Both the position numbers and the translations under genes were made by a program. A DNA stretch of 43,068 nt from a virus: the IMG/VR virus record IMGVR_UViG_3300005435_000028, positions 1 through 43,068 of that record; one strand, given 5' to 3'. A model generated the notes under the pieces. It made no database searches, had not been told where the DNA came from, and saw nothing but the letters and a program-made list of their open reading frames with translations. How positions within the stretch are numbered: the first letter of the stretch is position 1; each line of letters opens with the position of its first letter. Below, piece by piece: positions 14,507 through 41,510 of this stretch.

Positions 14507-15027
14507 ATCTCGTCATAGCTGGTCAGATCGCAACGGAACGTCAGGACGCCGGGAATGTCGAAGGTCAGCGTGCCTCCAGCCTCCGTGAAGGTGTCCTTCA
14601 TCCGTTCTCCGAAGTCGATCATGATCCGACTCGCCGCGTCCAGCATGTACCACTTGGCCTCAGCCAAGACAGCTGCCTGAAACTTGTCCTGAAGCTCGGC
14701 CAACGTCGCCTCCGCGTTCTTGATGGCCTTCGGATCTGCGCCGCGCTCCTTGGCCGCCGCGATCTTGGCCGGAGCCGCCGCGATCCGCTCGCGCCACTCC
14801 TTCATCTGTTCGGGAGTCACGCGCTGCATGTTCCAACTCTGGGCGCGCTCGTGGACTTGACTCTCTGTGAGAAGGTCGTCCACGGAGCCGCTCATGGGCC
14901 GAACCGGGATGCGTGGCGTCGGTGTGGCGGCCTTTGCGTACCCGCCTTCAGGTGGCCCCAGATCCACGCCGCGCTTCGCTGCATCTGCCTTCATCATGTC
15001 GAGGACAGACTTGGTTGTCTCAGACAT
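14497..15027 (-). CDS. Replication-associated protein with SSB-like DEIPF tip
   Basis: A 176-residue protein encoded directly after the primase-helicase. It has a flexible Pro/Gly-rich N-terminus, a long charged coiled coil (about residues 70-110) and a C-terminal strand-rich part ending SYDEIPF. Bacterial SSB ends in DDDIPF, the acidic tip that docks replication partners, so this tail may recruit host or phage proteins; there is no visible OB fold, so I do not call it SSB. The last codons form the slippery heptamer of a -1 frameshift, so two forms are predicted: one with the free tip and one in which the tip is buried in a 111-residue extension. ATG 15027 is 9 nt from GGAGG and overlaps the upstream stop. 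Confidence 0.7.
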   Translation of the reverse strand: MSETTKSVLDMMKADAAKRGVDLGPPEGGYAKAATPTPRIPVRPMSGSVDDLLTESQVHERAQSWNMQRVTPEQMKEWRERIAAAPAKIAAAKERGADPKAIKNAEATLAELQDKFQAAVLAEAKWYMLDAASRIMIDFGERMKDTFTEAGGTLTFDIPGVLTFRCDLTSYDEIPF

Positions 15028-16855
15028 CGACATCAACCTCCATTCCTTTCAGTGCCCAGACTTTGGGGCCACCGTAGTTTCCGCCTCCAGTCCGCTTGAG
15101 CGCGCCAGCCTCATCCATCTTCTGGGCCGCACTCTCGACGGTTGACCAGGTGATTCCGTCCACCTTCGCCGCCGCCTTGAGTTCGTCCACCGTCATGGGG
15201 CCGTTGGCGAGCATGTCGTTGATGAACCTGATCGCCTCCGCGCGCTTGGGCGCGTCTCGCAGGTCGTCCATCACCAGCTGGTCGGCCGTCATGTCGCTCT
15301 GGCCGTCCCAGCGGAATAGGCCCACGTCATCGCCGTCCTCAATGTGGTACACCCAAGACTTCCCGGAGCGCGCGAGGTTGGATTTGGCGTGGGCGAAGAT
15401 CCGGCTGCCCTCCGGGTCGATGGGGTTCTTGGCGACGATCATGGCCGAGCGCGTGGCGCCGATGATGCCGATGGAACCGCCTCCACGGTAGATTGCCGCG
15501 TTGCCCGAGAGTTTGTTGAAGTGGCGAACGAACGCGATGGTACAGCCTGTCTCCTCCGCGAGCTTGCGAAGTGGCGCCATCACCTGCGACCTGATTGCCT
15601 GGTCGCGGTGCGTGTCCACCGTCTCGTCCAAGACCGCCATCAGCGGGTCAACGATCATGAACCGCGCCTGCTCTTGCTCGATGGTTCGCCGGATGTACGG
15701 CATGTGCTTCACGATCTCCACGCCGAACTCCTCGCCAGCCTTCGGCCGGATGTCCTCAATGGCTACGATCCGGGACATGTCAGCCTTCTGAGCCTTGAGT
15801 CTCGGCTGGATTGTCTCTCCAAGGCTGTCTTCCACGGAGATGAGCACAGTGCTGAACTCCTCTGACCAGCCGTTCATCGCGCCGTCCGGGTTGACGTCGC
15901 CGCGCGACCACCGCGCTGCCAAGTCGAGTAGCAGCGTGGACTTACCCAGGCCGGGATCACCGTCAAGTATCACAAGCTTCCCAGCCGGGAAGTACGGATA
16001 CCAGAGCCACCGTGTGTACTCACGCTGAACGTCAGACATACGAGTGCCTGGAACGTACTCCGGGTCAAGCTCTGCGTCTGGCGTAGGCTGCTGAGCAGCG
16101 CCCTTCGCCTTGATTCGCGCTTGGAACTTCTCGTTGCCTTCCAGCGTTGCGTCCGGTTCGTACCGCGCCGCGTTCTTGGCGATCCGTCCAAGCTCGAAGT
16201 CGGACAGCGGTGGGTCATACCTCTTGTCTGCCCGCAGCGCCGTGAAGATGGTTTCCTCATCCATCCCCAGCCGCCGCATCGCGCTGGCCTGCCTGAACGC
16301 CGTGTCGTTGCGCTTACCCTTCGGGATGGGGCCTTCCAGCGTCTGGGAGACGGACACCGACCGCTGAGCCATCTCCAGGATCTCGGCTGGGATCTTGGCG
16401 AACGGTACGGTGTAGTCCACGGCCCACTCATACATGTGACCGTCCGGGTGGATGCTCGGTGGTGCTACAACGTAGCCTCCGTCAGCCCGGAAGTCCAACC
16501 CTGGCGACATTCCCGCGCGGTTACCCAGAGGTGAGTCGGGCATCATGAAGTAGATGTGTGTGCCGCGACCAGTCGCAACGGCTGGCGTATAGGGCAGAGA
16601 CAGGTTCAGAGCCTTGAGCGACTCCTCACCCAACTCACCGTCCACGTCGAACACGACAACGCCGGACGGACGCCCACACGCAATACCTATGTTCGCGTTA
16701 GGTTCGTCCGTCCACCACTTGTTGATGACTTCTTCATCGCGGCTGGCGTCATGGACGCCGTGCGATCCTGGCACCGGCCGCTTCGCTCGGGGCTGGAGTG
16801 GGAAGACAGCCAGCCCGTGTCGTGCGTACGCTAAGGCTGCCTCCCTCAGCGTCAT
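15020..16855 (-). CDS. Primase-polymerase/RepA-like helicase
   Basis: A 611-residue two-domain replication protein. Residues 1-160 are a bifunctional primase-polymerase (AEP/prim-pol) domain with VVVFDVDG (Asp70, Asp72), GTHIYF (His100) and DFRADGGYVVAPPS. Residues 180-240 look like a primase C-terminal helical module. Residues about 285-480 are a RecA-fold ATPase of the RepA/AAA_25 kind, with Walker A GDPGLGKST (299-307), Walker B RFMIVDP and a following RGGGSIGIIGATRS stretch. A C-terminal winged-helix-like region follows. It would prime and unwind phage DNA. No phage DNA polymerase is seen in the window, so the host polymerase may extend. ATG overlaps the dioxygenase stop (ATGA). Confidence 0.9.
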   Translation of the reverse strand: MTLREAALAYARHGLAVFPLQPRAKRPVPGSHGVHDASRDEEVINKWWTDEPNANIGIACGRPSGVVVFDVDGELGEESLKALNLSLPYTPAVATGRGTHIYFMMPDSPLGNRAGMSPGLDFRADGGYVVAPPSIHPDGHMYEWAVDYTVPFAKIPAEILEMAQRSVSVSQTLEGPIPKGKRNDTAFRQASAMRRLGMDEETIFTALRADKRYDPPLSDFELGRIAKNAARYEPDATLEGNEKFQARIKAKGAAQQPTPDAELDPEYVPGTRMSDVQREYTRWLWYPYFPAGKLVILDGDPGLGKSTLLLDLAARWSRGDVNPDGAMNGWSEEFSTVLISVEDSLGETIQPRLKAQKADMSRIVAIEDIRPKAGEEFGVEIVKHMPYIRRTIEQEQARFMIVDPLMAVLDETVDTHRDQAIRSQVMAPLRKLAEETGCTIAFVRHFNKLSGNAAIYRGGGSIGIIGATRSAMIVAKNPIDPEGSRIFAHAKSNLARSGKSWVYHIEDGDDVGLFRWDGQSDMTADQLVMDDLRDAPKRAEAIRFINDMLANGPMTVDELKAAAKVDGITWSTVESAAQKMDEAGALKRTGGGNYGGPKVWALKGMEVDVDV

Positions 16856-17775
16856 CCGAGCCGCTTCCCGCGCTCGGTGGACTTGTCCGCGAACTCCATG
16901 GCCTTGGCGTACTCCTCATCGTACGTGCCGCACTCGCGCATCTTGGTTCGGTAGTAACACACGATGCTGATGCGCTCGCTGCCGCACTCCTCGTGGGTGT
17001 GGGCGATCCGCTCACCGCAGACGCCGCAGGTCATCACGGTGTTGCCGTGCCAGTCATGGGCGTCCATCAGGAGCGTATCGCCGTCCTGAAGGTCAACGCT
17101 CACGCCGTACTCCGGGAAGGTGAGCATGCCGCCGGTGTATTTGCCGCGCCGGAGGCAGGTCACGTTGCTGAATCCTTCGGGAAGGTCACCGGAGTCTTGG
17201 TGGACGCCGGTGGGGTAGCTGTTGTTCACCGTCACGGTCGTGAACGGGGTGTCGTGGATGACCCACTCAGCCTGCGTCCGGTTGACGACCTCCATCTGGA
17301 TGGCGTACCGATCCGGGACGTACTGCTGGTACAGCGCGCCGATGTGCTGGAACAGCGGCTGGAGTGACTCAAACTTCTCGGCCTCCGAGCCTGTCCACGC
17401 CGTCAGCCGACAGTACTGCTTCGCTCCGGCCGGGTCGAACGCGCCGATGATGGCCGAGGAGACGGTGTCTGACGTGCTTGTTCGAGTGCCCGCCTTCTCA
17501 CCGCCATGCTTCGGCGCAACTCGCCGGTAGCCAGAAGCGTTACCCCGGTTGTGGCTCTCGAACTTCCGAAGCTCATGAAGGGTAGGATAAACACTGTCCC
17601 TCAACTCCTTTGGGATGGCCCCAGGCAGGTAGATGCAGAGTGGCTTGCCGTCCGGCCGGAGAACCTTGGCGGCCTGCGTCAGGACAACGCCGAAGTCTCG
17701 TGGGTCCAGCAGCTTGCCGACCTTAGCCTCAAGCTCCTCCTGCGGGATCTTGGAACGCAACCGAAGCTCAATCAT
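16852..17775 (-). CDS. TET/JBP-family DNA base dioxygenase
   Basis: A 307-residue 2-oxoglutarate/Fe(II) dioxygenase. The double-stranded beta-helix core shows GVHQDSGD (His192 and Asp194 of HxD), GGMLTFPEYG, GDTLLMDAHDWHGN (distal His243) and ERISIVCYYR (2OG-binding Arg, 268). The spacing and the HGN and ISIVxYxR signatures are those of TET/JBP enzymes, which oxidise the 5-methyl of thymine or 5-methylcytosine in DNA. A Cys/His cluster (250-264, TCGVCGERIAHTHEEC) is inserted between the distal His and the Arg, possibly a zinc knuckle. Start ATG overlaps the kinase gene's TGA (ATGA). The neighbours (P-loop kinase, transferase) fit hypermodified-base synthesis. Whether T or 5mC is the substrate is not determined; no C5-methyltransferase is visible, so thymine is the better guess. 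Confidence 0.85.
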   Translation of the reverse strand: MIELRLRSKIPQEELEAKVGKLLDPRDFGVVLTQAAKVLRPDGKPLCIYLPGAIPKELRDSVYPTLHELRKFESHNRGNASGYRRVAPKHGGEKAGTRTSTSDTVSSAIIGAFDPAGAKQYCRLTAWTGSEAEKFESLQPLFQHIGALYQQYVPDRYAIQMEVVNRTQAEWVIHDTPFTTVTVNNSYPTGVHQDSGDLPEGFSNVTCLRRGKYTGGMLTFPEYGVSVDLQDGDTLLMDAHDWHGNTVMTCGVCGERIAHTHEECGSERISIVCYYRTKMRECGTYDEEYAKAMEFADKSTERGKRLG

Positions 17776-18317
17776 GCGATCTCCTTGAGAATGTCGCCAG
17801 CTATGATGTCAGCCGGATGGTAGGTTGGGATCACCGTCGCGCCCCAGGCCTGTGCCAGCGCGCGAGCCTTTGAGGCACGTCCGATCACCCACGTTGGGTC
17901 TTGAGCCTTGGCGCCGTACAGCGCCTGTCTCTGGCGCCGTCGCTCGGCCAGAAGCTCCTCAGGAGCCTCAAGGTAGAACAGCTTGAGCGTGTAGCCAGCC
18001 GCGCGGATCGCCTCAAAGAAGCGCACGTTGGAGAGTCTGTCTCCCTCCGCGAACACCGGGGTGCGTCCCACGCGACCCAGGAAGTCAATGAACGGCACGG
18101 CCTTCTCGATGACGCTCATGGACAGTGCGTCTGTCCCACTGAACGGCCCACGGTTCGCTCCAAGCTCGGTGGCCTTGACGTCGCCATCCTTCATCCAGAG
18201 CGTGTGGGCAAATGGTTGAAGCACCGGACGCGGCACAACGCCCATATGGAACCGAATCCACTTCATGGTTGTCGTCTTGCCCGCGCCCGGTGCGCCGATC
18301 AGGTAGATGAACTTCAA
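17772..18317 (-). CDS. P-loop kinase, 5-hydroxymethyl-base DNA kinase-like
   Basis: A 181-residue P-loop NTPase with Walker A GAPGAGKT (8-15), a Walker B-like VFAEGDRL (88-95) and the segment TELGANRGPFSGTDALSM (50-67) characteristic of the predicted 5-hmdU DNA kinase group that accompanies hypermodification genes in phages. In that pathway the kinase phosphorylates the hydroxymethyl group in DNA so that a transferase can displace it with an amine or amino acid. It starts at TTG after AAGGAGG and sits between the transferase and the dioxygenase. Repeat copy C lies just upstream. Confidence 0.75.
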   Translation of the reverse strand: MKFIYLIGAPGAGKTTTMKWIRFHMGVVPRPVLQPFAHTLWMKDGDVKATELGANRGPFSGTDALSMSVIEKAVPFIDFLGRVGRTPVFAEGDRLSNVRFFEAIRAAGYTLKLFYLEAPEELLAERRRQRQALYGAKAQDPTWVIGRASKARALAQAWGATVIPTYHPADIIAGDILKEIA

Positions 18318-18334
18318 GGTCGCCTCCTTCAGGG

Positions 18335-18363
18335 TGGTAAACCTCCAACGCTCCGTCGCTCCG
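18335..18363 (-). repeat. 29-bp repeat, copy C
   Basis: CGGAGCGACG then CGTTGGAG and GTTTACC on the minus strand, in the 47-nt gap between the transferase-like gene and the kinase gene, 18-46 nt before the TTG start of the kinase. Confidence 0.85.
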
Positions 18364-18364
18364 A

Positions 18365-19267
18365 CTAGCGGCTGATCACTTCGCCGGTTCGAGCGTAGTG
18401 ACTGGCACGATGCCTGTCCACGCCCTTCCAGCCGTTGATCTCTCCCAGGTAGGCTGCGGGCAGAACGGCCGCGCGAGCCTCCCAGACTGGCTTGATGTGG
18501 GGCTGAACGCGCCAGTCGGCCTCCGCAGCGTTCATCTGCGCGAGGATGTCGTCAATGCCCTTGCCGTTGTAGTACCGGCCGTCAGCCATCGCGTGGAAGT
18601 CGCAGAGACACGTCTCAAGCTCCTCAATGGCGATGGGCAGACCGCGCCGCGCAAGTAGGTCTTGGAGGATCCAGCCCTGCTCGTCCAGCTGTCGGATCGC
18701 GGCCGGACTGTTGCCGTGGACGACGTCAAAGAACAGCGCCAGACCTTGTCTTGGGCCAGTGCTGTTCTCGTTGCCCATGTCTGGCGGTTCGAGCGGCCAG
18801 CCGTTGGACTTCATCAAGACCTCGGCCAGCTTGTAGCCTGCCCAGCGCCCGTTCCCGCGAACGGTCTGGACAAGCTTCACCATCCGGCGCCAACTCTCCT
18901 TCGGGTCTGGAGTCAGAGCCTCTTTGAAGAACGCCGTCAGGCTGCCGTGCATCTCGATGACCTTCGCCCACGACTCGAAGTGGAGGGTCATCGGCAGGCC
19001 TCCGCGTAGGCCGCGCCGCTCCACGTCCGTGGGGAGTTTGGCAGCTGCGCCCTGGACGTTGTCACCCGGTTCGGGAGCAGCGTGGAACACGGCCTCACTG
19101 GACGGCAGGGAGTGGTACGCAACGTACATGACGCTGCGCCACAGAGCCTGTTCTGGCTCCATGTCACGCTCCAGCCACTTGAGGAGTGGATAGGCCGGGT
19201 CAATGTCCAACGAGGAGATCTGGAGCCGCGCAAACGCGGTCAGGTCGTCAACGCGCTTGAGGTTCAT
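18365..19267 (-). CDS. Amino acid:DNA transferase / aGPT-PPlase-like protein
   Basis: A 300-residue, largely helical protein. A conserved-looking stretch GNGRWAGYKLAEVLMKSNGW then PLEPPDMG (138-165) and a later EELETCLCDF (215-224) then GRYYNGKGIDD (230-240) resemble the DNA-glycosylase-fold (HhH) enzymes predicted to attach amino acids or polyamines to phosphorylated 5-hydroxymethyl bases (aGPT-PPlase/amino acid:DNA transferase, also the HMUDK helical domain). I recall these motifs rather than having searched, so the exact clade is uncertain. The position next to the P-loop kinase and the dioxygenase strongly supports the role. ATG overlaps the upstream stop as ATGA. Confidence 0.6.
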   Translation of the reverse strand: MNLKRVDDLTAFARLQISSLDIDPAYPLLKWLERDMEPEQALWRSVMYVAYHSLPSSEAVFHAAPEPGDNVQGAAAKLPTDVERRGLRGGLPMTLHFESWAKVIEMHGSLTAFFKEALTPDPKESWRRMVKLVQTVRGNGRWAGYKLAEVLMKSNGWPLEPPDMGNENSTGPRQGLALFFDVVHGNSPAAIRQLDEQGWILQDLLARRGLPIAIEELETCLCDFHAMADGRYYNGKGIDDILAQMNAAEADWRVQPHIKPVWEARAAVLPAAYLGEINGWKGVDRHRASHYARTGEVISR

Positions 19268-19563
19268 CTCGTGACGTCCAGCATCCCAATCAGTCTGTCC
19301 ACCCTGGCGCGCTCCGCGAGGTAGTCAGCCCGCAGTTGCTGCGGGTGCTCCACAGCGCCAAGCTCCTTCGCCAACGCCGCGAGGATCGCGTTCATGGCGC
19401 CATCCGGTATCCTGGCGAATGGGAAGTCAGGTAGGGCTGCCGCCATCTGAACGCGTTGTTGGCCGCCCTGTCCGTTGTACAGGAAGTCGCCTCTGCGGAG
19501 ATAGATGCGATGGGTGAAGCTGGTGAAGTCTTTGACTACGATTGCCTCATATTCCTCGCTCAC
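19264..19563 (-). CDS. Hypothetical protein in the modification cassette
   Basis: A 99-residue protein: a beta-rich N-terminus (YEAIVVKDFTSFTHRIYLRR) and a helical C-terminal half (DGAMNAILAALAKEL, then ADYLAERARVDRLIG). GTG overlaps the stop of the ParB-like gene (GTGA) and its own stop overlaps the transferase start, so it is co-translated with the cassette. The function is unknown. It may be an accessory subunit. Confidence 0.7.
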   Translation of the reverse strand: MSEEYEAIVVKDFTSFTHRIYLRRGDFLYNGQGGQQRVQMAAALPDFPFARIPDGAMNAILAALAKELGAVEHPQQLRADYLAERARVDRLIGMLDVTR

Positions 19564-20462
19564 GCTTCAACCTTCCCGGCCAGCGCCGTCCGTGTATAGA
19601 CGCCTGCCTGAAATGCGGCCAGTAGCTCGTTGCCCTTGTCGGCCTTGATGGCATCCTGAAGCTCCAGGAAGCTCGCCTCAGTCTCCTCCGGGGTTGGCGG
19701 CAACGTCCGCTCCATCATCGCAAGGATGGTCTTGCCCACCGACTCGATTCCCCAGAACTTCTGGAGTGCCTTCACGCGCGCCATGAACTTGTCGTAGTCC
19801 TCAACCGCGTACATGAGGATGACCTCGTGGAATCCCTGGGCCTTGGCGACACCGCTCACGGTCTTGAGCTTCTTCATCGCCTCTGCCTGCGCTTCGGGAT
19901 CGTATGTGGCGTGGTCAGCGAACTTCGCCGCCGTCTCCTCCAGCCTGGCCTCTGAGATGTTACCGGCCTCAGCCTGCAACGTCTCCAGCGTGTCGATGTC
20001 GAAGCCAGTCCCAAAGAAGTCTGTCTGCTCGATGCCCGCCACGATCTTCCGGGTGCGACTCGGCCGCGCTCCGGCCGCGATCAGCTTGGCCAGTAGCTCC
20101 TTGTCGTACTCCGCGCCGTCGCTGGACGCGTTGTCGATGGCCACGATCTGCGCGGCCTCAACCTCATCCACGAACGAGTACACCACGTTGATGGTCTGGA
20201 TCTCAGCCACCTTCGCGGCCTCGACAGTGCCGTGGCCCTTGAGAATCGTTGTCTTGTCTTCGCCCCAGACGACAATCGGGACGTACTGGCCGTGAGCCTG
20301 CAAGCTCTCCACGATCTTGGCCAGGTTCTTGTGCTTGTTCGCGTTCAGCGGGTGCGCCTTCAGCGAGTCCACATGAACCTGGAACACTTCCATGCTGGCC
20401 GGAACGTCGATGGACGTCTGCCCTTCGACCTTCTTGGCGCGCTTGGTACCTTCTGCGCTCAT
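19560..20462 (-). CDS. ParB/Srx-fold nuclease-like protein
   Basis: A 300-residue protein. Residues about 25-95 form a ParB/sulfiredoxin domain: VHVDSLKAHPLNANKH, VESLQAHGQYVPIVVW and ILKGHGTVEAAK, the conserved order of this fold, which in various phage proteins acts as nuclease, NTPase or DNA-binding unit. The remaining 200 residues are helical and unrecognised. ParB-type proteins were reported by comparative genomics in phage base-modification neighbourhoods, often near TET/JBP-type genes, so it may direct or protect the modification machinery. It overlaps the nuclease gene upstream (ATGA). Confidence 0.75.
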   Translation of the reverse strand: MSAEGTKRAKKVEGQTSIDVPASMEVFQVHVDSLKAHPLNANKHKNLAKIVESLQAHGQYVPIVVWGEDKTTILKGHGTVEAAKVAEIQTINVVYSFVDEVEAAQIVAIDNASSDGAEYDKELLAKLIAAGARPSRTRKIVAGIEQTDFFGTGFDIDTLETLQAEAGNISEARLEETAAKFADHATYDPEAQAEAMKKLKTVSGVAKAQGFHEVILMYAVEDYDKFMARVKALQKFWGIESVGKTILAMMERTLPPTPEETEASFLELQDAIKADKGNELLAAFQAGVYTRTALAGKVEA

Positions 20463-21217
20463 CGCTCCTTCAACTCCTTCTTGATTTGGTAGTTGTCGAG
20501 ACAGTTCAGGAAGATCCGCCAGTACAGCGGCATCTTTGCCTGCTGCAACTCATGGATCTCAGCCTCAGCCGTCTGCTCCTCGCGGCCAACCCGGATCAGT
20601 ATGAACTTCTCCGGCCGCTCAAAGCCGTTCTCCTCCAGTAGCTCGCTGTACGCCGTCACCTGGCACTTGTGGCTCAGCCCGATGAATCGGCTGGACTTGA
20701 TGTCCCACAGCGTCCTGACTCCGTCCACGATGCCGTAGAAGTCAAGCTTGCCGCCGAACTTGTGCTTGCGACTCACCATCGGGTGCTCCACAAGGATCGG
20801 TTCGATGGTCTTGCCCTGCTTCCACGCGAGGAACGCGTTGACGCTGTACGTCGCGCGCTCTTGCTCGTCCTCAGACCACTCCTTGAGGCTGTACTCCTTG
20901 CCGTCCAGCTGGCGTTCGATCAGGTCGTGCGCCAGCGTTCCGACTCGGCCAGCTGCTTGCATGTACAGCCGGTTGTCGATGCCTTCCAGGCCGAGTTTGT
21001 TAGCCCAGCCGACAAGGTAGTCATCGCCGCCAAGCTCGTTGAGGACAGTCGTGACGCCGGGGACAAACACCTTGATCTTGGTCTTGCCATCCGGCGCCAA
21101 CTCGTCCGTCTCGAAGTAGTACCTGATGTGGGCCTTGACTCGCTGGCCAAAGTCCTCACGCCACCAGCCAGCCTTCTCCTCTGTCGGTTTCCGGCCGGAC
21201 GGTACGCCTGGCTTCAC
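20459..21217 (-). CDS. PD-(D/E)XK nuclease, RecB/Cas4-like
   Basis: A 252-residue protein. FGGKLDFYGIVDGVRTLWDIKSS supplies the PD-(D/E)XK pattern (Asp of GGKLDF, then D-x-K of WDIKSS) and SHKCQVTAYSELL the downstream QxxxY motif of the RecB/Cas4 exonuclease group. The N-terminal part has a conserved VPGVTTVLNEL and a helical LGWANKLG/AHDLIERQL region as in phage exonucleases of this kind. Probably cuts or resects DNA for recombination or host DNA degradation. Start GTG at 21217 overlaps the upstream TGA; the long frame upstream is not protein-like. Confidence 0.85.
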   Translation of the reverse strand: MKPGVPSGRKPTEEKAGWWREDFGQRVKAHIRYYFETDELAPDGKTKIKVFVPGVTTVLNELGGDDYLVGWANKLGLEGIDNRLYMQAAGRVGTLAHDLIERQLDGKEYSLKEWSEDEQERATYSVNAFLAWKQGKTIEPILVEHPMVSRKHKFGGKLDFYGIVDGVRTLWDIKSSRFIGLSHKCQVTAYSELLEENGFERPEKFILIRVGREEQTAEAEIHELQQAKMPLYWRIFLNCLDNYQIKKELKER

Positions 21218-21585
21218 TTCTTCACTCCTGGCTTGCGGACGAACGTGGCACCCTGCTTGATGCACGCGTCCACCCATCCGGTTTCGAGGATGCCTGCGGC
21301 CGCGAGCGCGCGGAGCAGGTCTTGGTACTGCCACCAGGGCATAGGCTTGTCGATGTACAGGTGGTAGTTGCCTGGTGTCGTGGACTCGACCACGCGAACG
21401 GGTATGCGGTCGATGTCCAGGACAGGCATGTGTTCGCCGGTATCCGTCAACGAGCCTATCAGGTTCGCTTCGGCCTCCGGTACGATGGTGGGGATGGGAG
21501 GATGCTCCCACCCCTCACCGGAATCCTTCTTGGCCGCCAGTTCCACGAACCGGAACAGCCTACTCTGTCGCGGCTGCGAAGGCAT
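21214..21585 (-). CDS. Hypothetical phage protein, 123 residues
   Basis: A beta/alpha protein with MPVLDIDRIPVRVVESTTPG and NYHLYIDKPMPWWQY followed by helices (LLRALAAAGILETGW). The DIDxPxxVxxSTTxGxxHLYID pattern recurs in hypothetical actinophage proteins encoded beside replication genes; the role is not known to me. ATG 21585 has GGAGGAG upstream. It overlaps the previous gene by 26 nt. Confidence 0.7.
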   Translation of the reverse strand: MPSQPRQSRLFRFVELAAKKDSGEGWEHPPIPTIVPEAEANLIGSLTDTGEHMPVLDIDRIPVRVVESTTPGNYHLYIDKPMPWWQYQDLLRALAAAGILETGWVDACIKQGATFVRKPGVKK

Positions 21586-23184: not shown

Positions 23185-23413
23185 GTTCTACTCCTTGTGG
23201 CCGGATGCCCGGCCGAATGGGGATGACGTTCTCCGCGAACGGCTCGATGACGTACACAACCTCCTTGGTTGCCTCATCCACGATCTGAGCGGTCACGTGG
23301 TGCTGTTCAGACATCCCGTCAGCGACCTGCCTGGCGACCGCGTACTCCAGGTGACCGGCCGTGACTGGAACCTGGGCCTCACGCACGACCACCTGGTACA
23401 GCTTACCGGACAC
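23168..23413 (-). CDS. Small protein between lysin and holin
   Basis: An 81-residue soluble protein with strands (LYQVVVREAQVPV, HHVTAQIVDEATKEVVYVIEPF) around a helix (HLEYAVARQVADGMSE). GTG overlaps the lysin end by 11 nt and the stop overlaps the holin start by 17 nt. It could be a lysis accessory protein, but has no signal peptide or lipobox. Confidence 0.65.
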   Translation of the reverse strand: MSGKLYQVVVREAQVPVTAGHLEYAVARQVADGMSEQHHVTAQIVDEATKEVVYVIEPFAENVIPIRPGIRPQGVEHGAER

Positions 23414-24275
23414 GGCCGAGAAGCCTCAACAGCCAGTAGATGATGAACCGCTGCGCGGCAGCCGCTACAGCGTCTGACGGAGTCGGAGGAGCCGTGACCG
23501 GCGTGTTGTTCGCCTCCGCTCGCGCCGCTGCGTCTGCTGCAGCGTGGGCTGCGGCTTCTCTCGCGTCCGCAGCAGCCGCTTCCGCCGCTGCCTTGGCATC
23601 CGCTTGGGCTTGGGCCTCGGCAGCCGCCTTAGCCGCCGCTTCAGCCGCAGCTGCCTGGGCCTGAGCCGCCGCCAGAGCCGCTTCCGCATCGGCTTTAGCT
23701 TTTGCCGCAGCCGCTGCCGCATCGGCCGTAGCCTTTGCCGCAGCCGCCTGAGCCGCTGCAGCCGCCGCGCGCTGGGCCCTCAGAACCTTGACGTACAGCG
23801 TCTTGACGACGATTCCTGGCCCACCCCAAGTGGCGAGGGTCATCACCTTGCCCCACCAGGGATCGGCCACCTGCGTCGGCGAGTACATCACCATCGCGTG
23901 GTAGCCGGGAACACCCACGGCCGGGTTGTGGATCCACACCACTGCGTACTCATCTGGGGCCGCGATGGCCGCGTTGATGTGAGCCTGGTTGAATGCCGCC
24001 TCGACGTGGGACGAGAAGCGTGGGCCAAGCCCACCATCGTTCGGGAACGCTCTGTCCAGCGCGTTGTCGGGCAGAAGGTCGCCGGAGAACACGCCTTTGG
24101 ACCACAGAAGGTCATCGAACGCTGGCGGCGTGTAGTGCAGGTCGGGATAGGCGTCATAGGCCACCATCGTGAGACACGTCTCATAGCAGCCGTACGGGCC
24201 AAGTTCGCCTGTGCCCGAGCCGAGCGCGTGGCCTGCCCAACGCGGATCTCTCTGCGAGAAGATTTGGAACGCCAT
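23403..24275 (-). CDS. C39-like cysteine peptidase lysin with coiled-coil tail
   Basis: A 290-residue protein. Residues 1-165 form a C39-like papain-fold domain: DPRWAGHALGSGTGELGPYGCYETCLTM carries the nucleophile (Cys30), GYHAMVMY the histidine and VADPWWGKV the acidic residue. Residues about 170-265 are an Ala/Lys/Glu/Asp low-complexity coiled coil (AAAAAQAAAAKATADAAAAA type), and the C-terminus is amphipathic (QRFIIYWLLRLLGRVR), possibly membrane-seeking. C39-like domains occur in actinophage endolysins as peptidoglycan peptidases. No classical cell-wall-binding domain is seen. ATG follows AAGGAGTAACG. Confidence 0.75.
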   Translation of the reverse strand: MAFQIFSQRDPRWAGHALGSGTGELGPYGCYETCLTMVAYDAYPDLHYTPPAFDDLLWSKGVFSGDLLPDNALDRAFPNDGGLGPRFSSHVEAAFNQAHINAAIAAPDEYAVVWIHNPAVGVPGYHAMVMYSPTQVADPWWGKVMTLATWGGPGIVVKTLYVKVLRAQRAAAAAAQAAAAKATADAAAAAAKAKADAEAALAAAQAQAAAAEAAAKAAAEAQAQADAKAAAEAAAADAREAAAHAAADAAARAEANNTPVTAPPTPSDAVAAAAQRFIIYWLLRLLGRVR

Positions 24276-24277
24276 CG

Positions 24278-25150
24278 TTACTCCTTCCGAGCCGCCGCGT
24301 ATGCGGCAGTGCTCATTCCGTGGATTCTCCGCTCCTCAAGGTCAAACAGGATCACGCCACCGCCGATCTCGCTGGGCGGGTAGCCTTTGCGCTCGCTGTA
24401 TGTAGTCGTCTCCTGTACGCCGATCTGGTAGCCTCGGAGATACGTGCCGGTGAGCATGAACAGTCTGTCGCGCTTGGCGATCCTCGGCTCACCGTCCTGC
24501 TCGCCGTAAGACAGCGCGACCTTCTGCGTCACGCCGTACTGATGGACGTGGCCCTTGAGGTACACGTCTGCTTCCCACTCGGCCGCTCGTCGCTGGATGC
24601 TGTTCGTGGCGTTGCCGATGGTTCCACCACCTGTGGCGCCATGCTCCGCGAAGATGTTGACCGTCCAGAGGTTGTCCGGTCGGCCGCGCTTGGCGATGTC
24701 CAGCTGGATCAGCGTGGTGTAACCAAGGTGTCGAACCTTGAACGCCTCCGCGATCTCTCGCATGGGGTCGCTGAAGTAGTGCTTCCTGAACGCATCCTCG
24801 TGGTTGCCGTCCAGAAGTCCCAGACACTTGTCGCGGATCGGCTCAAGCTCGCGCCGGATGAACGCAACGTGTTCCACCGCGAGGTTCCCGCTGCTCGGCC
24901 TGCCCTTGTGGTACCCGAGCCGCTTCCAGTCGTGGCCATCCATGTTCCAGCGCGGGTCGGACGGCATGATGAAGTCACCCATGTCGCCCAAGCCGAGCCA
25001 ACGCGCGTCCCGATCCTCCGCGACCATCTGAACGGTGCGCCGGAAGTCGTTGATGTCGCAGGCCGTCGCGCCCAGGTGTACGTCACCGATGGGGTACAGC
25101 CTCAGAGTCTTGGACGCCTTGACCGTAGCGGATGTGTGTGTAAGCTCCAA
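24278..25150 (-). CDS. Calcineurin-like metallophosphoesterase
   Basis: A 290-residue protein with all five metallophosphoesterase blocks: GDVHLGA (Asp23, His25), GLGDMGDF, LDGNHEDAF, NIFAEHGATGGG and KGHVHQYG. It is a binuclear metal phosphoesterase; substrates in phages include DNA ends, cyclic nucleotides and phosphoproteins, and none can be chosen here. Starts at TTG, 1 nt after the upstream TAG, with GGAGGAAATAG before it. It is co-transcribed with the nucleotide genes. Confidence 0.85.
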   Translation of the reverse strand: MELTHTSATVKASKTLRLYPIGDVHLGATACDINDFRRTVQMVAEDRDARWLGLGDMGDFIMPSDPRWNMDGHDWKRLGYHKGRPSSGNLAVEHVAFIRRELEPIRDKCLGLLDGNHEDAFRKHYFSDPMREIAEAFKVRHLGYTTLIQLDIAKRGRPDNLWTVNIFAEHGATGGGTIGNATNSIQRRAAEWEADVYLKGHVHQYGVTQKVALSYGEQDGEPRIAKRDRLFMLTGTYLRGYQIGVQETTTYSERKGYPPSEIGGGVILFDLEERRIHGMSTAAYAAARKE

Positions 25151-25708
25151 CTATTTCCTCCACAACTGGGCAAAGCGCCACAGGAACCACCGTTCAGCCT
25201 CATCCCACGTCATAGGCTCAATCCGCTCAGGCAGGGCCATTGACTCGTCCAACCAGGTGACGTGGGAACCTTCGGGGAACAGATCACGGCCTTCAGTGTG
25301 AACCATCACGTGGTCTGCCACCGTGACCGACTCCGGCCGGGGAGACGGAAGCTGGAACGCGATGTTCACGGCCGCCATCACATTGTCCTCAGCCTCGCGG
25401 TACGCTTCCATGCCGCGAGCGTGCTTAATCGGGCCAGGGAGATCCTTCAGATACGCCTCACCCGCGTCGTGGAGCAGCGCTGAAAGTGCGTCAGCCTCCG
25501 GGACGATGTAGGAGCATCTGAAGGAGTGCTCAGCCACACTGTAGAACGTCTCGGTGAAGCCACCGAACCGTGCCTGCATGGCGAGCGCGTGGGCGATGTC
25601 CCGGATGTCGATCAGCGCCGGATCAGGGCTGAGCGGCCGGAACTTCTTGCCGGAGAAGGTGTGGACGTAGTCGATGTACTCTCCGGCCTTATTCAGCTTG
25701 ATGGCCAT
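25151..25708 (-). CDS. HD-domain nucleotidase (YfbR-like)
   Basis: A 185-residue HD-superfamily hydrolase. The motifs DIAHALAMQARF, AEHSFRCSYIVP (His61), LSALLHDAGEAYLKDLPGPIKH (His80, Asp81) and a later Asp (TVADHVMVHTEGRDLFPEG) match the metal-binding pattern of deoxyribonucleoside 5'-monophosphatases of the YfbR type. It would hydrolyse dNMPs to adjust the nucleotide pool. ATG overlaps the TGA of the dNMP kinase gene, its likely metabolic partner. Confidence 0.85.
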   Translation of the reverse strand: MAIKLNKAGEYIDYVHTFSGKKFRPLSPDPALIDIRDIAHALAMQARFGGFTETFYSVAEHSFRCSYIVPEADALSALLHDAGEAYLKDLPGPIKHARGMEAYREAEDNVMAAVNIAFQLPSPRPESVTVADHVMVHTEGRDLFPEGSHVTWLDESMALPERIEPMTWDEAERWFLWRFAQLWRK

Positions 25709-26328
25709 CAGGAGTTAACCATGACTGAGAGGCCAGGGTCAAGCTCAGTCGGGCCGTAGCCTTCCGTCTGACAGATCGCTTGGCTGGGTCGCGCCGGAGC
25801 CGCTGCGCCTGGCAGAGCTTGTTTCGCTTCGATTGCCCAGATCACTGTGTCCTCCAGGTCCGCGAGGGAACCGTGGTTGTTGAGAACCAGATCCGCTCTG
25901 ATGAGTTTCTGGCTGGTCTCGGATGCGTGACCGTCACCGGCGTGTCCCGGCCGGATCACCCTCCAGACTTCACCACCGTGCGCTCTGACGAACTCGGCCT
26001 CATTGGGGAACCGGACGTCAGTTATAACCACCAGGTCGTGGTGACTAATCGCGCGCTCGGCCGCGAGGAGCCATGCGTCATCTCGGATGTTCTCACGTAC
26101 TCCCTCCGTTCCGAGCACCTGCAGAAGCTCACGGCCTTGTAGCATCCCACAGTGTTCGCACCGGGGAGTCTCGGCCTTGTCGCCGTTCCAGCCCAAGACG
26201 GCCGCGATGGCCTTCAACGGGTCAGCGAACGCTACGCGCTGGTACCCATACCGATTGAGGACAAGGGCAACGGTGTCCTTGCCTGAGCCTTTGTAGCCGG
26301 TCAGTCCTATCAGCTTCGGTTTGCTCAT
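25708..26328 (-). CDS. Deoxynucleoside monophosphate kinase
   Basis: A 206-residue P-loop kinase. MSKPKLIGLTGYKGSGKDT is a Walker A of the T4 gp1/dNMP kinase type (GxxGSGKDT), followed by RVAFADPLKAIAAVLGW, LLQVLGTEGVREN and DVRFPNEAEFVRAHGG, all signatures of phage dNMP kinases. It would convert dNMPs to dNDPs for replication. A CEHCGM insertion about residue 57 is a possible extra metal site. Repeat copy B abuts the ATG and supplies its GGAG ribosome site. Confidence 0.9.
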   Translation of the reverse strand: MSKPKLIGLTGYKGSGKDTVALVLNRYGYQRVAFADPLKAIAAVLGWNGDKAETPRCEHCGMLQGRELLQVLGTEGVRENIRDDAWLLAAERAISHHDLVVITDVRFPNEAEFVRAHGGEVWRVIRPGHAGDGHASETSQKLIRADLVLNNHGSLADLEDTVIWAIEAKQALPGAAAPARPSQAICQTEGYGPTELDPGLSVMVNS

Positions 26329-36591: not shown

Positions 36592-37446
36592 TTAGACGGT
36601 TGACGCCGGGAGAACCGCGATGGCATCCGGGCGGATGGTCTTGCCACCGTACAAGTGGAGGCCACGCAGCGCGTCAGCGAACGTGGTCTGGAGCCTGTAC
36701 GCCTCGACCTGGTTGATCTGCTCCGCGCCTGCGAGCGCGCTGGGAACTCCAGCAAGCACCGCGTACGTGGTGGCAGGCTGACCGAACGGCGACGTGGGGA
36801 CGTTGTTGGACACGAGGATGTCGATTCCAGCCGCGCGGCCGATCTGGCCGGAGAGCAGTGCTGAATCGACGTTCGCGGCCGGGTTGGCTGCGAAGTTGGT
36901 CGAGTCGAGCAAGAGCGCGTACATCCACGGCGGGAGGATGCCGAACCTTGCGTTCATCGGCACGTTGGCCTCGTCAAGCTTCTGCTTGATCTTCGTCAGC
37001 TGGGTGTAGGCGATTGCGCCGGTCGTGATCGGGACGGCCACGCCAGCGTTCAGCTTGTTGGCTGCCTGAACGTCCGCGTACTTCCCGGACAGGAAGATGT
37101 CGTGCTTGTCCGCCATGGCGTACGCAGCCTCGACCATCGCCTGCTCCAGGATCGCTCCGGCTGCCTGGCGCTTGTCGATGTCGTCCACCTCAAACGCAAA
37201 GTAGTCGGCCTGGTCGATGACCAGGGTGCGGTCAGCTGCGCTCAGCTGCTGCACGGTGATCGCCTGTCCCACCGTGTACGTGTTCACGGTCGGCCGCGAC
37301 ACGGAGTTGATGTGGACGGTGTCACCACTCTGGGCAATCTCGCCCTCGTAATCCTTGTTGAAGACACCCGCGTAAACGTGGGCCTTCTTCAGGGACGCGA
37401 GGAGAACTGACGACCAGATCTCAGGGACGAATGTACCGAATGACAT
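36592..37446 (-). CDS. Major capsid protein, P22 coat-like
   Basis: A 284-residue coat protein. TFVPEIWSSVLLASLKKAHV then GDTVHINSVSRPTVNTYTVG, DDIDKRQAAGAILEQAMVEA and GIDILVSNNVPTS are the pattern of the P22-type (gene 5) HK97-fold coat proteins common in actinophages. ATG follows AAGGAGAGTCC. Located after the scaffold gene, as usual. Confidence 0.9.
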   Translation of the reverse strand: MSFGTFVPEIWSSVLLASLKKAHVYAGVFNKDYEGEIAQSGDTVHINSVSRPTVNTYTVGQAITVQQLSAADRTLVIDQADYFAFEVDDIDKRQAAGAILEQAMVEAAYAMADKHDIFLSGKYADVQAANKLNAGVAVPITTGAIAYTQLTKIKQKLDEANVPMNARFGILPPWMYALLLDSTNFAANPAANVDSALLSGQIGRAAGIDILVSNNVPTSPFGQPATTYAVLAGVPSALAGAEQINQVEAYRLQTTFADALRGLHLYGGKTIRPDAIAVLPASTV

Positions 37447-39999: not shown

Positions 40000-40653
40000 C
40001 TAGGCCAAACTGGCCTTCTCGTCAATTTTGCTGCCGTCCATGTAACGCGGTTCGCCGTGGTAGTGCTTGTACCAGCAGCTGAGAGCCACGGCCAAGACGA
40101 TGTCGTCATGGTCGCCTTCGCGCGCGTTCTCCCACGTCTCGTTACCAGCCGTGGTGAATTTCGCGCTGAAGTTCTGAAGTTCGGCCTTCAGCAGCCTGCC
40201 TTCTGGGCTTTGCACCACCTTGTAGCGGCCGGTCTGGAGGATGGCCTGCATCTTCGAGACAAGCTCACTTTTGGGCACTTCGGTCTTGGTAGCCTTCCGG
40301 CCACCCGTTATCACATATCCGCGTGGCCAGTTGTTTCCAAGTAGCTGGCGCTGGTACGCGATCTGGAACAGTTCTACAACCTTCCGGCCGACTCCGGTGC
40401 CGTCGATGATGATCTCAGCATCTTGGAGTTGGCCGCGCCGGATGATGTCTCCGACCTCGCTGATGATCGCCGGGTACTCTGTACCCAGCGGCCAGCGCTT
40501 GATGTACCGGGTCTGGTAGTGGTCATCCTCCTGGATCTCGCTGCCCTCACCCTTGAAGATGACTTCTTTGGCTGCGATGATCCGCTCGGTGACCGCCAAC
40601 GCGGTGTAGTCAACGATCTTGCCTAGGTCGATGCCGATGGTGAAATTTGCCAT
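40000..40653 (-). CDS. Terminase large subunit, nuclease part
   Basis: A 217-residue RNase H-fold nuclease: IGIDLGKIVDYTAL (first acidic site), AEIIIDGTGVGRKV (second Asp) and REGDHDDIVLAVALS (third) supply the metal-binding triad of terminase nucleases. It is a separate gene, starting at ATG in a TGATG overlap with the ATPase gene. It would cut concatemers during DNA packaging, in complex with the ATPase polypeptide. Confidence 0.85.
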   Translation of the reverse strand: MANFTIGIDLGKIVDYTALAVTERIIAAKEVIFKGEGSEIQEDDHYQTRYIKRWPLGTEYPAIISEVGDIIRRGQLQDAEIIIDGTGVGRKVVELFQIAYQRQLLGNNWPRGYVITGGRKATKTEVPKSELVSKMQAILQTGRYKVVQSPEGRLLKAELQNFSAKFTTAGNETWENAREGDHDDIVLAVALSCWYKHYHGEPRYMDGSKIDEKASLA

Positions 40654-41510
40654 CAGAACAGTGGTTCAACCTCCGTGTCGAATGCCCTGTCGATGGACTC
40701 CTGGCTGAACGCCGCGCCGGTCGTCTCCAGGAACTCGCCCATGTATTCTTGGCTGTACTGGCGCTCACCCATCCGGGCAAGCTCCTCGGCCAGGAAGTCT
40801 GGCGTGATCCGGGGACAGTCGGTGGCGATGGCCTTGATCTTCATCCACCCACGTGGGTTCGTCTTGCGGTCGTACACTGGCCCTTTGTCCCAGGCCTCGT
40901 AAAACCAGCCGCGCTTACCCTTCGGGGTGCTGAGCGCGAGGAGCCGCCCACCGCTCACAGCGAGCATGGGGCTGATCGCGTTCACGAGCATGTCGGTGAC
41001 CATCGCGGCCTCGTCAACGATGATGAGAGCCACGCCGGAGTATCCACGGATGGTGGAGTCATCACGGCCGGGGAGACTGATGATGCGGGAGCCATTCTCA
41101 AGCTCCATCGTCAGGGCCGTTTCCGACTCTGGCGCCGGGTCACTCGAAGCTTCGAGCGTCAACCGGCCAGCCTCATTCACGTCGAACAGCATCGTGTCCA
41201 CGCTCTCGCGCGGAGCCTTCCACAGCGTCTTGTATATGCCCGCAACCTTGCGGAACAACTCACCAGACTGCCGTTGGGAGGGTGAGATCAGAAGGGTGAT
41301 GGATCCAGCGTTGTAGGTGGCCTCATTGGAGGCTGCGACGCCTGCGACTGTGGACTTACCGGCCTGGCGGTGGCAGTTCAGCAGAGTCCGCGCTGCCTTC
41401 TCCTCCAGCACGAGCCGCTGCCAAGGATCAGGGTCAAAGCCAATGGTTGGGGCCATCAGCGACGGATTCAGAGCGCGAGCCAGATCAGCTTGCAGCGCGT
41501 TCCCGTTCAC
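40653..41510 (-). CDS. Terminase large subunit, ATPase part
   Basis: A 285-residue packaging ATPase. LLNCHRQAGKSTVAGVAA is the Walker A, GVALIIVDEAAMV the Walker B with catalytic Glu, and LLALSTPKGKRGWFYE the coupling motif III. The reading frame stops just after the linker (FSQESIDRAF), where most phages continue into the nuclease. GTG start, 2 nt after the stop of the upstream gene. Confidence 0.9.
   Translation of the reverse strand: MNGNALQADLARALNPSLMAPTIGFDPDPWQRLVLEEKAARTLLNCHRQAGKSTVAGVAASNEATYNAGSITLLISPSQRQSGELFRKVAGIYKTLWKAPRESVDTMLFDVNEAGRLTLEASSDPAPESETALTMELENGSRIISLPGRDDSTIRGYSGVALIIVDEAAMVTDMLVNAISPMLAVSGGRLLALSTPKGKRGWFYEAWDKGPVYDRKTNPRGWMKIKAIATDCPRITPDFLAEELARMGERQYSQEYMGEFLETTGAAFSQESIDRAFDTEVEPLF

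Follow-up and report, generated by a model that had tools for sequence, protein, structure and literature searches.

Hypermodified thymines have been described in phages which insert 5-hydroxymethyldeoxyuridine (5hmdU) into their DNA via the nucleotide pool. In the synthesis of base J in kinetoplastids, JBP1 and JBP2 of the TET/JBP family oxidise thymine in DNA and the hydroxymethyl group is then glucosylated. Phage TET enzymes acting on 5-methylcytosine (5mC) are known as well. Here we analyzed the full length of the linear IMG/VR virus record IMGVR_UViG_3300005435_000028 (in the following the window; 43,068 nt, 61.7% G+C, no terminal repeats), which carries genes for a TET/JBP dioxygenase, a P-loop kinase and an amino acid:DNA transferase (ADDT) in one operon. 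We consider it likely that this cassette remodels thymine that is already part of the DNA by oxidation, phosphorylation and attachment of an amino acid, and that the modification is protective.

In the phages M6, ViI and phiW-14 a 5hmdU DNA kinase is assumed to phosphorylate the 5hmdU of the DNA before conjugation follows (PMC6449724), and the kinase and ADDT steps predicted for the window would parallel that order. The Pseudomonas phages M6 and PaMx11 share with the window an ADDT with the fold of PaMx11 gp46. Theirs adds an amino acid to a phosphorylated 5-hydroxymethyl base in DNA, a reaction that is predicted for the window. M6, however, uses a thymidylate-synthase-type hydroxymethylase, PF18748 and PF18723 kinases as well as pyridoxal phosphate (PLP) and radical S-adenosylmethionine (SAM) enzymes, whereas the window combines a TET enzyme with a PF18751 protein and has none of these M6 components. 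The phage 5mC-TET systems resemble the predicted pathway in that a TET/JBP dioxygenase acts on DNA before the hydroxymethyl group is decorated. They contain a C5-methyltransferase and a TET-associated glycosyltransferase; the window has neither and carries a kinase and an ADDT instead. Base J agrees with the prediction in the oxidation of thymine in DNA by a TET/JBP enzyme and the decoration of the resulting hydroxymethyl group, but there the decoration is a glucose, whereas phosphorylation and addition of an amino acid are predicted here.

The cassette of the Rhodococcus phage Tonitrus (PP978825) has already been described by its authors as a thymine hypermodification system (PMC11955845). 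Like the window it contains ParB-like, TET-like, ADDT (there aGPT-Pplase2) and kinase genes, with identities of 39.7% for the ADDT and 41.2% for the kinase. Its TET enzyme belongs to a divergent subtype, however, with Asn and Leu in place of Asp197 and Arg276 of the window; its gene order is different, and its kinase gene is followed by a possible flavin gene, which the window lacks. Among the loci collected in this work (L numbers), L017, L018, L029, L102 and their relatives have the same TET subtype as the window (~50% identity) and the same order ADDT – kinase – TET, but most of them carry a flavin-type or an Asp/Arg-hydroxylase-like gene between ADDT and kinase. The window cassette belongs to a known, predicted kind. 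An earlier reading of the window (referred to as the original prediction) had stated that no characterised system follows exactly this route, and as far as the literature examined shows, this still holds.

Families and folds of the three enzymes

The dioxygenase, the kinase and the transferase had been assigned in the original prediction, and sequence and fold comparisons supported all three. The matches to Tet_JBP, Ploopntkinase3 and ADDT alike exceed the curated cut-offs of Pfam. For the dioxygenase the score against PF12851 is 86.4 bits (cut-off 34.9). The iron ligands His192, Asp194 and His243 as well as the 2-oxoglutarate-binding Arg268 are kept in 51 of 51 sequences. A structural model with a mean predicted local distance difference test score (pLDDT) of 91.7 gave NgTET1, CcTet, TET2 and CMD1 as top Foldseek matches. 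Its superposition with VIA-align resulted in Z-scores of 22.4 for TET2 (268 residues), 20.0 for CMD1, 19.7 for NgTET1 and 18.6 for CcTet. The best AlkB-type structure, ALKBH3, reached 14.4 and FTO 13.2. In the model the double-stranded β-helix is thus more TET/JBP-like than AlkB- or FTO-like, and a fold outside TET/JBP, which had been named beforehand as one of the findings that would count against the original prediction, was not observed.

In a tree of 141 TET sequences, ADDT-linked and unlinked enzymes are interspersed with 23 changes, so that linkage to an ADDT is not confined to one clade. The nearest relative of the window TET is found in L091, where kinase and ADDT are replaced by a ParB-like gene together with a protein of no assigned family. 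The residues Asp197 and Arg276 were considered as discriminators between thymine and cytosine and rejected: they are invariant in the TET subtype of the window and changed in the Tonitrus subtype, which has the same partner enzymes.

The transferase scored 56.7 bits (cut-off 26.2) against PF18724, the ADDT family formerly named alpha-glutamyl/putrescinyl-thymine pyrophosphorylase clade 2. The sole significant Foldseek match of its model (pLDDT 96.7) is PaMx11 gp46 (1.5e-5), the structure of which is titled 5-phosphomethyl-2'-deoxyuridine glycinyltransferase. A superposition with gp46 resulted in a Z-score of 20.9 and a root-mean-square deviation of 3.2 for 243 residues; the next family followed at a Z-score of 11.9. 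The family profile also matches 25qc (5e-16), whose deposition names it an amino acid:DNA transferase domain protein. The protein had been described as helix-hairpin-helix (HhH)-type. Its fold does resemble HhH DNA glycosylases, but the likeness to gp46 is far greater.

The TTG start codon of the kinase gene is preceded by a strong GAAGGAGG ribosome-binding site. An alignment of 11 kinase sequences contains 24 invariant columns, to which the Walker A motif GAPGAGKTT contributes most of its positions. Membership in a kinase family was correctly predicted; the protein is, however, not a 5hmdU DNA kinase of the M6 type (PF18748 with PF18723) but belongs to PF18751, which is also found without TET. 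A profile comparison of its family with the M6 kinase gave a weak P-loop match (probability 67.9%), and no window open reading frame (ORF) of at least 60 amino acids matched HMUDK_hel, the helical partner of the M6 kinase (PF18723). Relatives from mycobacteriophages are annotated as adenylate kinase or terminase small subunit.

The following observations weigh against a role of this kinase in thymine modification. PF18748 was not among its Pfam matches up to an E-value of 1, whereas M6 gp54, used as a comparison, matched it at 7.7e-18. Relatives of the window kinase occur in 386 phage records, mostly of mycobacteriophages (~360). In the cluster B mycobacteriophages Oline, Hashim76 and CRB2 a PF18751 kinase adjoins the terminase although neither TET nor ADDT is present, and the CRB2 genome (L012) contains 7-deazaguanine genes. 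The family is therefore not bound to hydroxymethyluracil, and the predicted link between the kinase and 5-hydroxymethyluracil (5hmU) rests on the gene neighbourhood and on L057, a cassette described below.

The position next to the terminase in cluster B would also suit a packaging factor. If the P-loop protein were such a factor and not a DNA kinase, the modification would end at hydroxymethyluracil or be activated in another way. The protein indeed matches PHROG 800, 'terminase small subunit', at 3.5e-15, and several records use that label. In the window, however, the gene is located between ADDT and TET, with the terminase gene some 22 kb away, and it accompanies the ADDT in 38 of the 39 ADDT loci that were fetched via TET. 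In addition, a phosphorylated substrate is expected for the ADDT reaction according to the title of the gp46 structure. We regard a packaging role as highly improbable and retain the assignment as a predicted DNA kinase.

Co-occurrence and the source of the hydroxymethyl group

Alignment-based searches of IMG/VR yielded 72 ADDT loci. The TET relatives numbered at least 548; we kept 80 of these, 78 of them as new loci. A scan of viral contigs with the single transferase sequence had given no match, whereas the alignment-based searches did find relatives. Within the fetched stretches of the 72 ADDT loci we observed TET in 63, the kinase in 67 and a ParB-like gene in 59; TET, ADDT and kinase occur together in 61. 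The 78 new TET loci contain an ADDT in 39 cases and a ParB-like gene in 65. The kinase is present in 38 of the 39 loci with ADDT compared with 7 of the 39 without. Two layouts are commonest. One runs ParB – ADDT – (flavin gene) – kinase – TET and, minus the flavin gene, matches that of the window; the other runs ParB – TET – ADDT – (flavin gene or Asp/Arg-hydroxylase-like gene) – kinase. All three enzymes are also encoded by six isolates, namely Rhodococcus phage Tonitrus, Gordonia phage CaiB, the Mycobacterium phages Phelemich and LilMcDreamy, and the Microbacterium phages Kozie and MO526. The chemistry of the original prediction appears mostly right, but its implied rarity of the system was overstated, given the 61 loci and the six isolates. 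Among the genomes of the bacterial collection searched, an ADDT relative turned up only on a Streptomyces africanus contig. This 92.7 kb contig of the NRRL B-24243 genome carries the cassette and is at the same time an IMG/VR virus record (L169 / L029).

We looked for PF00303, the thymidylate synthase family that includes the M6 hydroxymethylase. It was found in none of the 47 virus records with TET and ADDT, the window included (M6 as positive control, 5.5e-20), and in none of the six isolate genomes with TET, ADDT and kinase. Four of the six TET-less ADDT records longer than 20 kb do contain it (M6, G049, G050 and G054, but not G051 and G052). The near-exclusion of TET and PF00303 corresponds to a Fisher p of 1.5e-4 with one exception counted, the Caulobacter phage Cr30, and of 4e-4 after rough thinning, values that overstate independence because the records are related and that serve as a guide only. 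These comparative data strongly support a dioxygenase that would stand in for the missing dUMP hydroxymethylase.

Some points speak for a source in the pool instead and hence weigh against oxidation within DNA. 5hmdUTP could be produced by an enzyme encoded off-contig or belonging to an unknown family, while the dioxygenase does another job, e.g. oxidising the hydroxymethyl group further or oxidising the side chain of the amino acid; TET enzymes are capable of multi-step oxidation. The large Caulobacter phage Cr30 (L003) combines TET and ADDT (1.3e-52) with a canonical ThyA. The window itself encodes a deoxynucleoside monophosphate (dNMP) kinase and an HD-type dNMP phosphatase together with a DNA-repair-exonuclease-like protein, a possible hint at remodelling of the nucleotide pool. 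Furthermore, the record may be a fragment, so that gene absences within its 43,068 nt fall short of proof. The HD-type phosphatase, however, is widespread in phages generally (263 records), and PF00303 is missing from the 47 TET and ADDT records and the six isolates while four of the six TET-less ADDT records carry it. Supply from the pool appears very unlikely to us.

The nature of the oxidised base is suggested by the chimeric cassette of L057 (L057:5283-10355), which comprises an HMUDK_hel protein, a PF00303 (hydroxymethylase-like) fusion, an ADDT, a putative flavin enzyme and a PF18751 kinase; no TET was found. Since kinase and ADDT are paired here with a thymidine-type hydroxymethyl route, a TET enzyme in the same slot would most simply supply 5hmU, and the pairing points to thymine over cytosine. 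Genes for a C5-methyltransferase (PF00145) were absent from the window and from 11 related phages. Matches occurred in 4 of the 47 TET and ADDT records, three of them above the cut-off; in one locus, L159, the methyltransferase gene lies beside the TET-ADDT-kinase cassette. A search of the window for a TET-associated glycosyltransferase was negative. Thymine is thus the likely substrate of the dioxygenase. The original prediction had reported neither a C5-methyltransferase nor a dUMP hydroxymethylase, which is correct within the 43,068-nt record, and had concluded 'probably from T'. With PF00303 in 0/47 records and 0/6 isolates, the pairing in L057 and the scarcity of C5-methyltransferases, this conclusion has a stronger basis than the single contig available then.

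Alternatively, the dioxygenase might oxidise 5mC provided by the host or by an unseen phage methyltransferase, and kinase and transferase would then yield a hypermodified cytosine. 5mC is the substrate of its structural neighbours TET2, NgTET1 and CcTet and of known phage enzymes, L159 offers a methyltransferase next to the cassette, and methylation of cytosine by the host may be a source of 5mC; all of this weighs against thymine. C5-methyltransferases are nevertheless missing from the window, its 11 related phage genomes and all but four of the 47 records. Moreover, gp46, the structural match of the ADDT, acts on 5-phosphomethyl-deoxyuridine, in L057 a kinase of the same family and an ADDT occur alongside a hydroxymethylase of the thymidylate synthase type, and the glycosyltransferase that accompanies phage 5mC-TETs is lacking in the window. 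We therefore judge a cytosine product unlikely and favor thymine.

A different TET neighbourhood was observed in the Nonlabens phage P12024L (L002:16409-18674). Here TET is followed by a TET-associated glycosyltransferase and an N6/N4 methyltransferase, and a C5-methyltransferase was not found in the genome. The product is possibly a base-J-like glycosylated hydroxymethyluracil.

Operon layout and further genes of the phage

Almost all predicted genes of the window are located on the minus strand (Table 1). The original prediction described the set from the ParB-like protein to the dioxygenase (20462-16852) accurately in all coordinates. The ATGA/GTGA overlaps were likewise found as described, with a 47-nt gap before the kinase and overlaps of 4 nt at all other junctions, and the quoted motifs are all present (ELGANRGPFSGTDALS; HQD, residues 192–194; WHGNT, residues 242–246; R268-ISIVCYYR). 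The shared operon extends in both directions: the exonuclease gene overlaps the ParB-like gene at the upstream end, and the primase-helicase gene overlaps the dioxygenase gene at the downstream end. The cassette is therefore embedded in a replication module.

Table 1. Features of the window with their positions and supporting matches
Feature	Position	Strand	Evidence
PD-(D/E)XK / Cas4-like exonuclease	20459..21511	-	PHROG 298 exonuclease 2.1e-22; PDDEXK_1 1e-3 (below cut-off)
ParB-like protein	19560..20462	-	PHROG 723 ParB family 2.7e-29; Pfam ParB_N 6.6e-4 (below cut-off)
99-aa orphan protein	19264..19563	-	Pfam and PHROG: no match
Amino acid:DNA transferase (ADDT)	18365..19267	-	PF18724 3.8e-15; fold of PaMx11 gp46
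P-loop kinase, TTG start	17772..18317	-	PF18751 (Ploopntkinase3) 9.6e-29; ribosome-binding site
TET/JBP 2-oxoglutarate/Fe(II) dioxygenase	16852..17775	-	PF12851 (Tet_JBP) 1.6e-24; fold of TET2
Prim-Pol primase-polymerase / AAA helicase	15020..16855	-	Prim-Pol 1.1e-42; AAA_25 1.6e-27
Putative cysteine-peptidase-like lysis protein	23403..24275	-	By eye; PHROG: no match
dNMP kinase, HD-type dNMP phosphatase, DNA-repair-exonuclease-like protein	24278..26328	-	
Capsid protein	36592..37446		Closest to Streptomyces phage phiSASD1, 47%
Large terminase, second part	40000..40653	-	Weak terminase matches
Large terminase, ATPase part	40653..41510	-	Closest to Meiothermus and Thermus phages, 42%

The ParB-like gene is a recurrent first gene of such cassettes, and a role of its product in DNA targeting is a guess. 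ParB-like genes head modification cassettes of differing chemistry, as in CRB2 (7-deazaguanine), HTVC112P (L001), L091 and most TET cassettes. They also accompany a cytosine hypermodification system (carboxymethylcytosine), where their function is reported as unknown (PMC12783734). The orphan protein has no relative among 168 loci.

The PHROG and Pfam scans covered part of the remaining small ORFs of the window, and for 10 additional proteins the Pfam search gave nothing informative. The large terminase is seemingly split into two overlapping parts. Judging from the different affinities of capsid protein and terminase the phage is of mosaic origin, and its host is likely an actinobacterium. 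The putative lysis protein has a long, repetitive, alanine-rich C-terminal tail.

Predicted reactions and their meaning

Based on gene content, families, folds, conserved catalytic residues, co-occurrence and the near-exclusion of TET and hydroxymethylase we propose the following pathway, in which the reactions, the thymine substrate, the amino acid, the modified sites and the protective role are predicted. In the first step the 5-methyl group of thymine in the phage DNA would be oxidised by the TET/JBP dioxygenase to yield 5hmU. The P-loop kinase would then phosphorylate the hydroxymethyl group. In the next step the phosphate would be displaced by an amino acid in the ADDT reaction, yielding an N-alpha-aminoacyl-thymine, with glycine as the default guess for the amino acid. 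The modified base would finally shield the phage DNA from host nucleases.

Relatives of the flavin-gene product, the Asp/Arg-hydroxylase-like, PLP and radical SAM enzymes, which could sculpt the side chain, were looked for in the window without a match. Thirteen other loci likewise have the kinase immediately after the ADDT and lack a flavin-type or Asp/Arg-hydroxylase-like gene. The end product predicted for the window is an unsculpted aminoacyl-thymine. Elsewhere (L017:6314-7432 and L011:2656-3759) a second predicted 2-oxoglutarate oxygenase, Asp/Arg-hydroxylase-like (PF05118, 3e-6), is encoded between ADDT and kinase, which perhaps hydroxylates the attached amino acid.

Because the dioxygenase would act on finished DNA and bypass the nucleotide pool, one can imagine that only selected thymines are marked, with the ParB-like protein helping in the selection. 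The pathway would then end at an aminoacyl-thymine that has not yet been described, and would represent site-selective labelling and not wholesale replacement of the base. We consider this version rather doubtful and put it forward tentatively.

The cassette suggests that thymine hypermodification can be entered by a second route, evidently a common one, in which a TET/JBP enzyme would make the hydroxymethyl handle on the DNA. The near-exclusion of the two entry enzymes sharpens a prediction from gene neighbourhoods into a testable claim, and the cassette is already present in isolates grown on laboratory Mycobacterium smegmatis and Gordonia. The three enzymes are a possible small toolkit for writing amino-acid groups onto the thymines of ordinary DNA. 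For the phage, the modification probably serves as armour against host defences.

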